The notes beneath the pieces are model-generated. The model was not told the origin of the DNA and did not search any database. It was given only the letters and a program-made list of their open reading frames with translations. The translations under genes were made by a program, and so were the position numbers. From Bdellovibrionales bacterium (lineage in GTDB: Bacteria; Bdellovibrionota; Bdellovibrionia; Bdellovibrionales; UBA1609), in assembly GCA_007121385.1 (NCBI GenBank), contig SKLV01000012.1, forward strand, positions 1 to 36,156: 36,156 bases of DNA, given 5' to 3'. Positions 15,764 through 30,490 of the stretch are shown piece after piece (the first letter of the stretch is position 1; each line of letters starts with the position of its first letter).

Positions 15764-16300
15764 TCAGTCGTGACAGTCCTCCACCGGAGGAGGAGGGTTG
15801 AGTTGGTTGCGCTCCTCATCAATCGGGGGCATGGGAACGGGCTCGTCTCTTTCCACAATGCGGATGTCGGCACAGGAAAAGTAAGGCCTGGGGTTGGCGG
15901 GGTTTTCAGTCATCCACTGAATGAGACGCAAAGTGCAGCTGCTGCAGGTGAGTCCTGCAGGCAATGTCAAATTGGCCTGCCATCTGTGAGGTAAGGTATC
16001 CCGCCCATTCTGAGTGTCAGGGACTTCCAAGAGAATCTGGAAAGTTTCATCGTTGTCCGAGGAAATGGAGAGCTCGTAATAGCCGGGATGGTCTATGGTC
16101 TCCTCCCATTGCACCACAATCGTTTGGCCGGCTTGAAACTCCACTGTGGGGTTCATATTTTTGGCTATGCCTCCACAGGGCCCAGTTTTTAAGCCTGGAT
16201 TGTTGCTGCGCGGAGGGGTGGTGCCTCCCGGCAGCAAGCGGGCGTGGGCACTCACTTCGAGGGTCCAGACAGCGGCGAGCAGTAGGACAAAGAACTTCAT
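15764..16300 (-). CDS. Secreted LPMO-like (polysaccharide monooxygenase-like, SCE4755-type) protein
   Basis: Signal peptide MKFFVLLLAAVWTLEVSA followed by His (HARLLPGG...), NPGLKTGPCGG, ETIDHPGYYELSIS, LPAGLTCSSCTLRLIQWM, YFSCADI. Confidence 0.7.
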   Translation of the reverse strand: MKFFVLLLAAVWTLEVSAHARLLPGGTTPPRSNNPGLKTGPCGGIAKNMNPTVEFQAGQTIVVQWEETIDHPGYYELSISSDNDETFQILLEVPDTQNGRDTLPHRWQANLTLPAGLTCSSCTLRLIQWMTENPANPRPYFSCADIRIVERDEPVPMPPIDEERNQLNPPPPVEDCHD

Positions 16301-16797
16301 AACTCAACTCCTCGATGGCATTTAGCGTAAAGTGCATCTATGGCTTTCTCTAAAGTGTCGGCAGAACTGTGAAAGATAGCTCGGTCTTGGTGAAGGAGGC
16401 GGCGATTGTAGCAGTTGAACTCCGCGTAGTTGTAGGCCCCACCAGGAGCAAAGTCTTCGGGCTCGCCAAGGGCTCGGGAGGTGTCAAAAAAGAGGTGTTT
16501 CACATCCAAGCAGCGCGCCCCGAAGGCTTGGGACTCAAAGCACAGGGAGAGGGTGTCTTCGCCGTCCTGCGTGTTGGGGCTGAAGACTCGGGCATCACAG
16601 GAGATGTCGGCAAAGACTTGGCAGTCCTCATCCTGGCTAAAGTTCATCACTTTGAGGCTTTCCTGAACTGGAGGCTCGCAGGTCCTTCCTAACGACAGGG
16701 AGCTCTCCGATTGGATGGAGAAGCCGTCACAATTATTATAGAGTACAAGGGCTGGCACCACCCATATCACCAAGGCCAATTTGCGAAGCCAACTCAT
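16297..16797 (-). CDS. Cys-rich envelope protein with N-terminal hydrophobic segment ending LVLYNNC; unknown function
   Basis: MSWLRKLALVIWVVPALVLYNNCDGF..., eight cysteines; 4-nt overlap with the downstream LPMO-like gene. Confidence 0.75.
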   Translation of the reverse strand: MSWLRKLALVIWVVPALVLYNNCDGFSIQSESSLSLGRTCEPPVQESLKVMNFSQDEDCQVFADISCDARVFSPNTQDGEDTLSLCFESQAFGARCLDVKHLFFDTSRALGEPEDFAPGGAYNYAEFNCYNRRLLHQDRAIFHSSADTLEKAIDALYAKCHRGVEL

Positions 16798-16891: not shown

Positions 16892-17989
16892 CTAGCGTGT
16901 TGCAGTTTGGTGGTTAGAGCGTAATTTCTGGGCCAAGAGCTTGTTGTGAATGGGGGACCAGGTTTCTCCGACGATGGCCCAGGGGCCAGGGTTCACATCA
17001 GAGCCATTATTCAATCTCTCAAGATAGAGAAACTTTTCCCCAAAGTCCGAGATCCGATCGGACTCGTAGCCTTGAACGAAGCGGATGACGGCCCTGGACC
17101 CATGGATCAAAACTTTGGGCTCATAGGTTTGCACCCGAATAAAGCTGTAGCGGTTTTTGAGTCCCTCTTTGTGCCTCTTCCAGGCCCGGCGATTCATTCC
17201 TCCAGACTCAAAGTCTGGATGGTAAAACTCCATATAGCGGTCAATGTCTTGGGACTCCCAGGCCTGTCGCCAGTTCTCTAGCCAGGTGAGCATTTGAGAA
17301 GAGTTGAGCCTTTGCCGAGCGGGGTCAATGTACTCTGTGCTCTCTTCGACAATAATGGGAGTGCGCCCTAAGGTGATGTATTTTTGAATATCATCCATGT
17401 GCTCATTGCGGATCACCACACAGCCTCGAGAGCCTCGCCAAAGGGAGGTGGTGTCGGGGATCCCATGGAGCCAAATCCCCGAGCCTGTCTTTCTGTCCCT
17501 TCGGTCAAAAAAATTGGGATAGTCCATGGTAAAAGCTCTCACTCCATACTCGTCAAAGTTCAGTTGGCGACCCTGATACATATGCTCAAAAAAATAAATC
17601 CCTCGCGGAGTCTTGAGGTCACCTAAAATCATTTTGTCCCCAGGGACTCGCCCCAGGTCTGTGGAGTAAGAAGTCACGAAAACGATTTGGCCATTGCGGT
17701 TTCTCCACACCGAAAGAGTTCTTCGCGCCTTGTCCACCACAATGGCATAGGGTGAGAAGTAAAGCCCCTGCCCCAGATGAGCCAGAGCGCTGGGAATGGA
17801 GCCCGGCACGGGGACAAAAGGGGGCGGGTCTGGGCGAAACTCTCCATTGATGGGCTCGGCGGTCGACTCCGTCTCGGTTTGAGAGTAGGCGTCCTCCTCG
17901 GAAACCATAGAGGGGGAGGCCTGAGCCAGGCTGAATGCGCAAAGCGTTATTGTGAGAGCTACAAGAGCTCGAAATCTAGCTGTGGACAT
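16892..17989 (-). CDS. L,D-transpeptidase (YkuD) with C-terminal NTF2/SnoaL-like domain (Csd6/Pgp2-like architecture)
   Basis: IVVDKARRTLSVWRNRNGQIVFVTSYSTDLG, KTPRGIYFF, GIWLHGIPDTTSLWRGSRGCVVIRN (HG...S-R-G-C), C-terminal NWRQAWESQDIDRYMEFYHPDFESGG. Confidence 0.88.
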   Translation of the reverse strand: MSTARFRALVALTITLCAFSLAQASPSMVSEEDAYSQTETESTAEPINGEFRPDPPPFVPVPGSIPSALAHLGQGLYFSPYAIVVDKARRTLSVWRNRNGQIVFVTSYSTDLGRVPGDKMILGDLKTPRGIYFFEHMYQGRQLNFDEYGVRAFTMDYPNFFDRRDRKTGSGIWLHGIPDTTSLWRGSRGCVVIRNEHMDDIQKYITLGRTPIIVEESTEYIDPARQRLNSSQMLTWLENWRQAWESQDIDRYMEFYHPDFESGGMNRRAWKRHKEGLKNRYSFIRVQTYEPKVLIHGSRAVIRFVQGYESDRISDFGEKFLYLERLNNGSDVNPGPWAIVGETWSPIHNKLLAQKLRSNHQTATR

Positions 17990-20120: not shown

Positions 20121-21515
20121 ATGAGGTGCTTCAAAGGACTGATAGGCTTTATGGCTTTGTTTTCAGTGGCCTGTGCCACTTTGCCAAGTGGGAGAGCTCC
20201 CTTTCAGTTGAGACCTTTTACCGAAGTCCAGTTGGACAACGGTCTGCCCGTGCTTTTGATTCCAGATCAGAGTCTGCCCTACATCTCATTGGTTCTCCTG
20301 ATTCACTCAGGAGCGGCAGACGATCCTCAGGGTCAAGCGGGTCTGGCTTCCCTGGTGGGAGACCTGCTCAATAAGGGAACCACGTCACGATCGGCTGTAG
20401 AGTTGTCTGACTCTCTGGCCCAAATCGGGGCGGGGTTTTCGGTTTCCGTGGGTCAAGACTACACTTTTGTGTCGGCGAGCAGCCTTTCTTTTCACTTTGA
20501 GCCTTTGCTCAGGGATTTTGCCGAAATTCTCACTGAGCCCACCTTTACCCAAGTGGAAGTGAATCGGGTTCGCCAGCGGCGCCTGGCTGAGCTGCAGAGG
20601 GTGGTGGATCAGCCCACGGGCTTTGCGGCTCGAGCCTTTCAGCAGATTTTATATGGGACAGAGCACCCCTATGGACGTCCTTCCTCGGGGACGCTGGCAG
20701 ATGTGAGAGCTATGCGGCGAGCGAATATTATTCGCTACTATTTAACACACTATCGTCCCAACAACGCCCAGCTGGCCGTGGTCGGAAACTTTAATCAGGA
20801 CAGTATTCAAGAGGATCTCAACCGGGCTTTGGCCAACTGGGAGGCCAGGGAAAGACCCCCCTTGGAGCTGGCCCAATTCCCCGAGATCAATGGTCGGCAG
20901 GTTCATATGGTCCACAAGGGAGACCTCACTCAAACTCAAATCCTTATAGGGCATGGGGGGATTCAGCGGACGGATCCTGACTTTCTCACTTTGCGTGTGG
21001 CCAACAGCATTTTGGGAGGGGCCTTTTCTAGCCGATTGATGGATGAGATTCGTGAGGTCAGGGGCTTAACCTATTCAGTGAGCTCCGAGATTGGCTCAGG
21101 TCGGGACCGAGGTCTGTTTTCCATTCGTAGCTTCACCCGTCATGAAAAGGCGGGAGAGACTGTTCAGGTCGCTCTAGGAGTTTTAGAAAAGTTGATTGAA
21201 GAGGGGGTCACAGATAGGGAGGTGAGGGACGCCAAGGCCCTTCTCAAAGGAATATTTCCTCGAGCCATAGAAACTCCAGAGCGCCTGGCACAGAACCTCT
21301 TGATTTTACGCTATCATGGAATTGGAGATGATTATCTTCGGGACTATTTCCGCAACCTGGATCGCATCCGGGCTCGCGATGTGAATCGGGCCATCCGGAA
21401 GCACTTGGATGCTCAGAACCTGCGCATCGTTTTGTTCACCCATCGAGAGCAGGTGGAAGCCCAGCTGAAAGACTTTGAGCCAATAGAACACCATAGTTTT
21501 GAGGACTTTCGTTAG
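20121..21515 (+). CDS. M16-family peptidase-like lipoprotein lacking HxxEH (inactive partner)
   Basis: Lipobox MALFSVAC; M16 fold sequence PQGQAGLASLVGDLLNKGT with no HxxEH; adjacent to the catalytic M16. Confidence 0.9.
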   Translation: MRCFKGLIGFMALFSVACATLPSGRAPFQLRPFTEVQLDNGLPVLLIPDQSLPYISLVLLIHSGAADDPQGQAGLASLVGDLLNKGTTSRSAVELSDSLAQIGAGFSVSVGQDYTFVSASSLSFHFEPLLRDFAEILTEPTFTQVEVNRVRQRRLAELQRVVDQPTGFAARAFQQILYGTEHPYGRPSSGTLADVRAMRRANIIRYYLTHYRPNNAQLAVVGNFNQDSIQEDLNRALANWEARERPPLELAQFPEINGRQVHMVHKGDLTQTQILIGHGGIQRTDPDFLTLRVANSILGGAFSSRLMDEIREVRGLTYSVSSEIGSGRDRGLFSIRSFTRHEKAGETVQVALGVLEKLIEEGVTDREVRDAKALLKGIFPRAIETPERLAQNLLILRYHGIGDDYLRDYFRNLDRIRARDVNRAIRKHLDAQNLRIVLFTHREQVEAQLKDFEPIEHHSFEDFR

Positions 21516-22267
21516 CCTCTGCTTCGGCGCCGCTTTTTGTTTTTTTGACCCTGGGGCCAAAACCACAGGGCAAAAGCTCCCAAAAATAGAAGTCCTAAGA
21601 TGATCCAGGGGAGCCAGGAGGAGAGTCCCTCTGTGGTTCCCGACTTGGATTGGGCTTCCAGGCCAGAGAGGTTTAAGCTCTGAAAGCCTCCTTCAGAAAG
21701 GGCTCCGGATGCAGTGACTTCCGCTAAGGCCAGGTCGGACCAGACCTCTAGGGGAGGCAGACGGATGCTGGAGAGGACGGACTGAAAGTGCAAATTATAG
21801 GCCTCCCACTGACTGGAGTGGGCCGAAAAGCTCAGCAGCACGGAAAGGCCTCGGGCCGAGGTGGCCACATAACGAGTATTGAATTGGGGGATCTCGCTGG
21901 CAAAATGAGTGGCATCCACCCATTCGACTCCACCGAGTTCGAGGACAGTGTGAGCAGTGACCTCAGAGCGCTGTGGGGCGGACCCCGTGCGAATGGCGGT
22001 GGCCCTGGGCTCAAGGAGGCGTCTCTTTAAAAAGTCCAAGTTCTCTTCGGCACTGACCTGCTTGGCTGAGACCACCAGGATGGCCTGTCGGCTGAGGGCG
22101 GGGTCCTCTGGCTGACAGACAATATCGGCCCCATCCTTTTGGCAGTCCCAACCAGGCGGGACCTGGAAGCCCATATAATTGGTCTGGATCAGAGTTTGGC
22201 CCCAGGCTGGCCCAACTCCAGAGCTGAGTAGCAAGCAGGCTAAGTGGATCAAGGCGATGGGTTTCAT
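21512..22267 (-). CDS. Signal peptide + extracytoplasmic domain + C-terminal TM with basic tail; paralog of next gene
   Basis: MGFQVPPGWDCQ...FNTRYVATSARGLSVLLSFSAHSSQWEAY...SSIRLPP...SWLPWIILGLLFLGAFALWFWPQGQKNKKRRRSRG. Confidence 0.75.
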   Translation of the reverse strand: MKPIALIHLACLLLSSGVGPAWGQTLIQTNYMGFQVPPGWDCQKDGADIVCQPEDPALSRQAILVVSAKQVSAEENLDFLKRRLLEPRATAIRTGSAPQRSEVTAHTVLELGGVEWVDATHFASEIPQFNTRYVATSARGLSVLLSFSAHSSQWEAYNLHFQSVLSSIRLPPLEVWSDLALAEVTASGALSEGGFQSLNLSGLEAQSKSGTTEGLSSWLPWIILGLLFLGAFALWFWPQGQKNKKRRRSRG

Positions 22268-23040
22268 GAGGGTTTTGACTTAGGCCTTCTTTTTTTCTTG
22301 GGCTGAGGCTTTTTTCTCAATAAGAGCAATCCCGCAGAGAGAATAATCACCCCCAAAGCCAACCAAGTGAGAGCCGAGGAGCCCCCTGATCCTCCCTCCT
22401 CCTCATCCATATAGAGGTCTAAGTCTCCACTTAAAATAGTGCCCACCGGAGTTCCCAGGCTTTCGTGGGCTCCACGCACACCATGAGCTCCCCCCTGGCG
22501 GAGGAGGTCCTGAGTGGCCACCACTCGCAAGCTGTTGATGGCCCGCAAAAAGTCCGGGCTGTAGCGAGTGTAAAAGTTGCGGTGAGCACTAAAGGTGACC
22601 AAAATGGCAATTCGATCCTTTGTGGTGATCAGATAGCGAGTGTAATAGGAGTTGATCTCACTTCCAATTTGCAGGCCATCCACCCAGGTGTGGTTGTCGA
22701 TGTTCACTCGATTGACCTGCACCACTTGAGAGGCCTGAGTGCTTCCATCGGGGCGAGCCAAATTGCGCACCGATTTCAGGTGGTTTTCGTAGTTTTCAAG
22801 ACTGTCTCCTGGCCCCAGTTCTTTGGCCGTGAGAATAATAACCGCCTCTTTGGGCTTTTGCTCGTTGTTGACGCAAACCCATTCGGTGTTCTCCATACTG
22901 CAGTTCCAGCGCTCGGGAAGTTCAAAGCTGACGTAGGCGTTACGAAAACGCCGAGCCTCTGCAGGGAGGCCCATCAGGGCAATCAGAGCCAGGATTCCAA
23001 GCTGAGCGAGAGGCCACGAAAGGCGAGAGGAGTATTTCAT
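22264..23040 (-). CDS. Signal peptide + extracytoplasmic domain + GGSGGSS linker + C-terminal TM with basic tail; paralog of 21512-22267
   Basis: VSFELPERWNCSM...YYTRYLITTKDRIAILVTFSAHRNFYTRYSPDFLRAINSLR...EEEGGSGGSSALTWLALGVIILSAGLLLLRKKPQPKKKRR. Confidence 0.75.
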   Translation of the reverse strand: MKYSSRLSWPLAQLGILALIALMGLPAEARRFRNAYVSFELPERWNCSMENTEWVCVNNEQKPKEAVIILTAKELGPGDSLENYENHLKSVRNLARPDGSTQASQVVQVNRVNIDNHTWVDGLQIGSEINSYYTRYLITTKDRIAILVTFSAHRNFYTRYSPDFLRAINSLRVVATQDLLRQGGAHGVRGAHESLGTPVGTILSGDLDLYMDEEEGGSGGSSALTWLALGVIILSAGLLLLRKKPQPKKKRRPKSKPS

Positions 23041-29924: not shown

Positions 29925-30059
29925 ATGACTGTAAGCTTTTTGATTCTTGGAGCATTGTTAGGTTTGGTGGTGCTGGTCGGGCTCTGGCCCCGTCCTCAGG
30001 TTCAAGAGGTTCGCTTTGAACTGGCTCCCGCCCCTCGTCCACCCCGGAGGCGTCGATGA
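29925..30059 (+). CDS. Small membrane protein candidate, 44 aa (below ORF-track cutoff)
   Basis: MTVSFLILGALLGLVVLVGLWPRPQVQEVRFELAPAPRPPRRRR; TM plus Pro/Arg tail; stop overlaps the next start (ATGA). Confidence 0.55.
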   Translation: MTVSFLILGALLGLVVLVGLWPRPQVQEVRFELAPAPRPPRRRR

Positions 30060-30490
30060 ATAAGAGACGCTGGATGATTTCCTCTCTGACGGTCGGCCTG
30101 GGCTTTCTTCTTTTACACTTTCAAAACTGTGCGATGCCTTCAGAGTTGGAGGGGTACTCTGATTCACCTGCTTTTGGCTCCTCTGAAGAGGTGAGAATTG
30201 TGGACGATTGGGCGACGGCAAAGATCAGTCTTTTTCAAAAGAGTATGGACCTGGCAGTGGACGAAGACATCCTCGTGGTTGATGGCTTTTGCTCTCGCTC
30301 TTTGCGAGGAGAGGTCTTGGAGTGGGACTTGGAGGAGCACTCCCAGGGAGTCGCCCTCTGTGAAATGGGAGGGTTTCGGCTGGTTCTCGATCACTTGGGA
30401 GAGCTGGATTGTGGTTTTGACTACCGCCTTCAAGTGCGCTCCACCGAGGGAGATCAAGAAGACCTGATCCTTCATCGCCACTGTTTATAA
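30056..30490 (+). CDS. Lipoprotein-like protein with LLLHFQNC motif, unknown function
   Basis: MNKRRWMISSLTVGLGFLLLHFQNCAMPSEL...; five cysteines. Confidence 0.7.
   Translation: MNKRRWMISSLTVGLGFLLLHFQNCAMPSELEGYSDSPAFGSSEEVRIVDDWATAKISLFQKSMDLAVDEDILVVDGFCSRSLRGEVLEWDLEEHSQGVALCEMGGFRLVLDHLGELDCGFDYRLQVRSTEGDQEDLILHRHCL

Follow-up and report, generated by a model that had tools for sequence, protein, structure and literature searches.

An SCE4755-family LPMO-like protein encoded together with its own lipoprotein in a Bdellovibrionales genome, and a possible disulfide tether between the two

The window analysed here, a stretch of 36,156 nucleotides from a Bdellovibrionales bacterium, carries a gene for an LPMO-like protein of 178 amino acids (15764..16300). 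The coordinates given in the initial annotation are correct, and the strand, which was left unstated there, is minus. Directly upstream, as in relatives, lies a gene for a Cys-rich lipoprotein of 166 amino acids (16297..16797), its stop codon overlapping the start codon of the LPMO-like gene in the sequence ATGA (16297..16300), an arrangement suggestive of translational coupling. Both genes, and all of their features mentioned below, are on the minus strand. The original observation of an LPMO-like gene was thus confirmed; it included neither the lipoprotein gene nor the terminal cysteine of the LPMO-like protein, and the coupled gene together with the matched odd cysteines of the two proteins is what is new here. 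The two-gene module is adjoined by a gene for an L,D-transpeptidase (YkuD) with a Cds6-type NTF2-like C-terminal domain (16892-17989, minus). Elsewhere in the window, two adjacent genes (21512-22267 and 22264-23040, minus) encode similar secreted proteins, each with a hydrophobic segment followed by a basic tail at its C-terminus, and look tandem-duplicated.

The translation of the LPMO-like gene reads MKFFVLLLAAVWTLEVSA|HARLLPGG..., followed by ETIDHPGYYELSIS, GPCGG, CSSCTLRLIQWM and PYFSCADI, and the motifs listed previously (a second histidine, GPCGG and YFSCADI, with ETIDHPGYYELSIS and CSSCTLRLIQWM) are all present in it. The protein scores 101.3 bits against the NCBIfam profile NF043005 of the SCE4755 family (curated cut-off 75; E 4.6e-29; model positions 4-145 of 146), 28.4 bits against Pfam LPMO_10 (gathering threshold 23; E 3.1e-6) and 30.4 bits against the BIM1-like domain (gathering threshold 27; E 6.4e-7), values well outside what chance would give. 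Because of these profile scores, the invariant residues and the LPMO fold matches described below, the protein is, judged by its sequence, a new member of the named but experimentally uncharacterised SCE4755 family. The profile search thus bears out the SCE4755-type identity proposed in the initial annotation, and its LPMO-like identity is upheld by the family profiles, residue invariance, alignment of the copper site with AA15 and AA10 enzymes, and fold comparison. The gene is present in a single copy in its own genome, and no plasmid-borne relatives of it were found. No open-access paper on the SCE4755 family was found either, the family being named by profile only.

The predicted signal peptide, MKFFVLLLAAVWTLEVSA (16247..16300), consists of a Lys, a hydrophobic core and a final VSA, with cleavage expected before His1. 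This cleavage, which had been proposed to expose the first ligand of a copper histidine brace, is predicted from comparison with homologues: those with a complete N-terminus have a His right after an Ala, Gly or Ser at position -1, in a leader that is otherwise variable, with one exception (L022). The codon of mature His1 (16244..16246), that of His53 in the HPG motif as second brace ligand (16088..16090) and that of Tyr122 in the YxxC motif as axial residue (15881..15883) specify residues that are invariant, together with Cys24 and Cys125, in an alignment of 51 sequences (A2). In alignments based on a profile of 20 relatives, His53 and Tyr122 coincide with His91 and Tyr184 of TdAA15A (5msz) and with His144 and Phe219 of ScLPMO10C (4oy7), the AA15 and AA10 residue numbers being obtained by counting along the profile alignments. 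In the insect AA15 enzyme TdAA15A (PMC5823890) and in ScLPMO10C (PMC5094447), the histidine is the second ligand of the brace and the aromatic residue the axial one. The second histidine and the axial aromatic residue in YFSC, both pointed out in the initial annotation, therefore coincide with the corresponding AA15 and AA10 positions. An LPMO-type copper site in the window protein is accordingly highly probable, and the mature protein would be expected to bind copper and to be redox-active. A divergent family member (L022, genome G232, match 1435-1863) has Asn1 and Gln53 in place of both brace histidines; their joint loss is as expected if the two share one metal.

The AlphaFold model of the mature protein (pLDDT 92.5) has as its 20 best PDB matches LPMOs of families AA11, AA15, AA10 and AA9 and fusolins. 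Nineteen matches have E<=0.001, and every one of these is an LPMO or a fusolin, though with TM-scores of just 0.39-0.60. The LPMO-like beta-sandwich anticipated earlier is thus recovered in the model, with a TM-score to any LPMO of 0.60 at best, which we count against the explanation favoured below.

The partner protein has a predicted lipobox cysteine (LYNNC; 16729..16731), placed by an aligned motif in relatives and probably lipidated; relatives with a complete N-terminus have [YF]xNC, SGC, SAC or ISC at the aligned position. The [YF]xNC lipobox-like motif, with an Asn at -1 that is unusual for lipoproteins, recurs in the window (at 16297-16797 and 30056-30490) and in most partners. The folded part of the partner has six conserved cysteines, and its model (pLDDT 84) is of high confidence in the core and of low confidence in the N-terminal segment. 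No Pfam or NCBIfam family matched the partner, no PDB relative was found by sequence, and comparison of the model with PDB folds gave no match (best E 0.17).

The LPMO family was found in 24 of 370 genomes of the phylum and the partner family also in 24, of which 23 are LPMO-bearing. At the loci of relatives within the phylum, the partner gene is directly upstream of the LPMO gene, and adjacent to it wherever the contig allows; in the sole LPMO genome without a partner (G076, locus L017), the LPMO gene is cut by the contig end. A near-obligate pairing of the two genes within the phylum is thus well supported, and the lipoprotein is very probably a functional partner of the LPMO-like protein. 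One orphan partner copy (L129, 1333-1791, genome G221) has no LPMO beside it and lacks the linker cysteine discussed below. In the flanks of the myxobacterial loci that were examined, no partner lipoprotein was detected.

Each of the two proteins has a cysteine to spare. The C-terminal tail of the LPMO-like protein (15767..15856) is variable and Pro-rich, without conserved residues except for one cysteine, and is modelled with a pLDDT of 70-78, so that it may lie against the domain to which it belongs. The tails of short-form LPMOs in general comprise 16-62 residues, are mostly Pro-rich and have this cysteine as their only conserved residue. The window protein's single tail cysteine is mature Cys158, third from the end (15773..15775), and exactly one tail cysteine, 2-9 residues from the C-terminus, is found in 19 of 19 short-form LPMOs, that of the window included. 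For rough comparison, among ORFs in the flanks (spurious ORFs included) a cysteine falls in the final 6 residues of 12% and in the final 10 residues of 20%. In complete sequences, the cysteines of the folded domain are even in number, and these are lost in pairs (the two core cysteines missing in L024 and L080 are the CxxC pair); the tail cysteine is therefore left without a partner in its own chain. The partner's extra cysteine (mature Cys18; 16678..16680) lies in its low-confidence N-terminal segment. Exactly one such linker cysteine, between lipid anchor and core, occurs in all 16 readable partners of short-form LPMOs, against none of the 6 partners of LPMOs that end in a cysteine and a transmembrane helix. 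In one partner (L010), two core cysteines are lost and the linker cysteine is retained.

The association of 16/16 versus 0/6 is no statistical proof, because the trees do not show repeated origin (in AU tests a single origin of the cysteine states was not rejected, with p 0.87 for the LPMO tree and 0.43 for the partner tree), and the pattern may reflect few evolutionary events. The simplest reading of the matched odd cysteines is an intermolecular disulfide, which we judge to have about an even chance of being right; either spare thiol could instead link two copies of its own protein or be modified with some other group. Among the points in favour, the host genome encodes two DsbA-family proteins and four secretins.

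The explanation that we favour, with slightly better than even confidence, is that the window encodes a secreted oxidase or oxygenase with one domain and a copper histidine brace, which is co-translated with its own lipoprotein and held by it at the envelope through a disulfide. Signal peptidase would expose His1, the LPMO-like domain would fold with its internal disulfides, and the spare cysteine at the tail end would then pair with that of the partner's flexible linker. The partner would provide the lipid, yielding a lipid-anchored copper enzyme that could act on nearby glycan. In a histidine brace, the free amine of the N-terminus takes part in holding the copper (PMC10952591). Since His1 must therefore be free, the enzyme itself is presumably not N-terminally lipidated and would owe its lipid to the partner. 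The pair would be expected to reside at the outer membrane.

It is also conceivable, if rather unlikely, that the LPMO-like enzyme is free or tethered non-covalently, with the lipoprotein binding it without any mixed disulfide and each spare cysteine being used separately. Gene pairing needs no disulfide, and both spare cysteines are in lower-confidence segments of the models; however, both have been retained across very divergent sequences, and the linker cysteine is missing in partners of LPMOs with a Cys-transmembrane tail. The divergent member without brace histidines bears on another possibility, namely that of an LPMO scaffold serving to bind glycans or surfaces without catalysis, its copper site being a relic or incidental in some lineages. 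This member still has the tail cysteine, the partner gene and the partner's linker cysteine, in a genome scored 100% complete, so that catalysis cannot be all that the pair is kept for. Nevertheless, none of the 51 aligned sequences departs from His1, His53 and Tyr122, and we consider a non-catalytic protein very improbable.

Copper acquisition or delivery, as by fungal BIM1/X325 proteins, would change the function: the brace would bind copper without any cutting of polysaccharide, and the lipoprotein would hold the protein at the envelope. The BIM1-like domain is above cut-off in the window protein and in 15 of 20 members, and anchored copper-binding relatives are known. In BIM1/X325 proteins, an Asp occupies the copper site that LPMOs leave open, often with an axial Tyr in the latter. 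The axial Tyr of the LPMO type does not vary here, which makes a BIM1-like role less likely; moreover, no X325 or CopC structure is found among the top fold matches, the first 20 of which are LPMOs, and no copper-transport gene recurs nearby. Such a role thus appears improbable.

Returning to an anchored oxidative enzyme, the window protein probably oxidises a polysaccharide, and its most likely function would be that of an envelope-held copper enzyme acting on glycan within reach. Peptidoglycan or a prey polymer, as suggested in the initial annotation, is a possible substrate. Genomic context lends this guess no support, because the L,D-transpeptidase gene does not recur next to relatives; having no counterpart near them, it was also rejected as a functional partner.

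Other branches of the family rely on different C-terminal ways of anchoring. Members from Pseudomonadota MAGs are extended far beyond the domain at the C-terminus, in several cases up to a final hydrophobic segment. No formal MYXO-CTERM match was found in the Bdellovibrionota forms with a Cys-transmembrane tail. At five loci (L033, L042, L044, L046 and L048), the LPMO tail ends in a KP/AP-xx-(L/V)K-like motif resembling an FN3 strand, and a lipoprotein directly downstream has an FN3-like domain seemingly without its first strand. With the native tail joined on, the fn3 score of the lipoprotein rose from 17.2, 14.5 and 18.2 to 22.4, 19.2 and 26.0 bits at three of the five loci, and from no match to 12.3 bits at a fourth, with scrambled tails giving 13.7, no match, 18.8 and no match at these four; L046 had no fn3 match with or without the joined tail. 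From these sequence comparisons, it is possible that a split FN3 domain is completed by strand donation from the LPMO tail to the lipoprotein. Pentapeptide-repeat-like proteins with CxxC are encoded directly upstream of the LPMO gene at three of these loci (L033, 5417-5923; L044, 421-849; L046, 4802-5416).

It is tempting to speculate, albeit tentatively and at somewhat less than even odds, that the pair represents a two-protein display module, in which a disulfide from its C-terminal cysteine holds the enzyme to a lipoprotein of its own and leaves the catalytic N-terminus free, related lineages having arrived at MYXO-CTERM ends, fused extensions or possibly split FN3 domains instead. If true, this would provide a simple answer to the question of how Gram-negative bacteria retain LPMO-like enzymes with a free N-terminus on the cell, as well as a first lead on the function of two families that have gone unstudied, one named by profile and the other without family or solved fold.

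Among known systems, the best fold match of the window model is the AA11 structure 7p3u. The AA11 enzymes (7p3u, 4mai) and the AA10 enzyme (4oy7) have the LPMO beta-sandwich and a YxxC-like C-terminal strand in common with the window protein, but with a TM-score of at most 0.60 and an identity of at most 20%; the window domain is shorter, and its substrate face should therefore differ. TdAA15A, the second-best fold match (5msz, TM-score 0.49), shares the aligned second His and axial Tyr, but is an animal digestive enzyme of about 195 residues, compared to some 130 for the window domain. BIM1/X325 proteins (Pfam PF20238) share the histidine brace and small domain and are membrane-anchored in fungi, yet with an Asp copper ligand and a GPI anchor in place of the axial Tyr and bacterial lipoprotein partner seen here. 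The SCE4755 family itself (NF043005) has the same leader, HPG and YxxCAD motifs. Its Sorangium member (L078, the only one scanned) has a MYXO-CTERM end, unlike the bare terminal cysteine and partner of the window protein, which was rejected as a MYXO-CTERM protein, its chain ending two residues after the cysteine. In M. xanthus, MYXO-CTERM proteins are cut at an invariant, probably lipidated cysteine (PMC11980579). MYXO-CTERM/myxosortase anchoring also uses a C-terminal cysteine as the anchor point of related LPMO-like proteins; the window protein lacks the transmembrane helix and basic tail after this cysteine, and a separate lipoprotein would provide the anchor instead.
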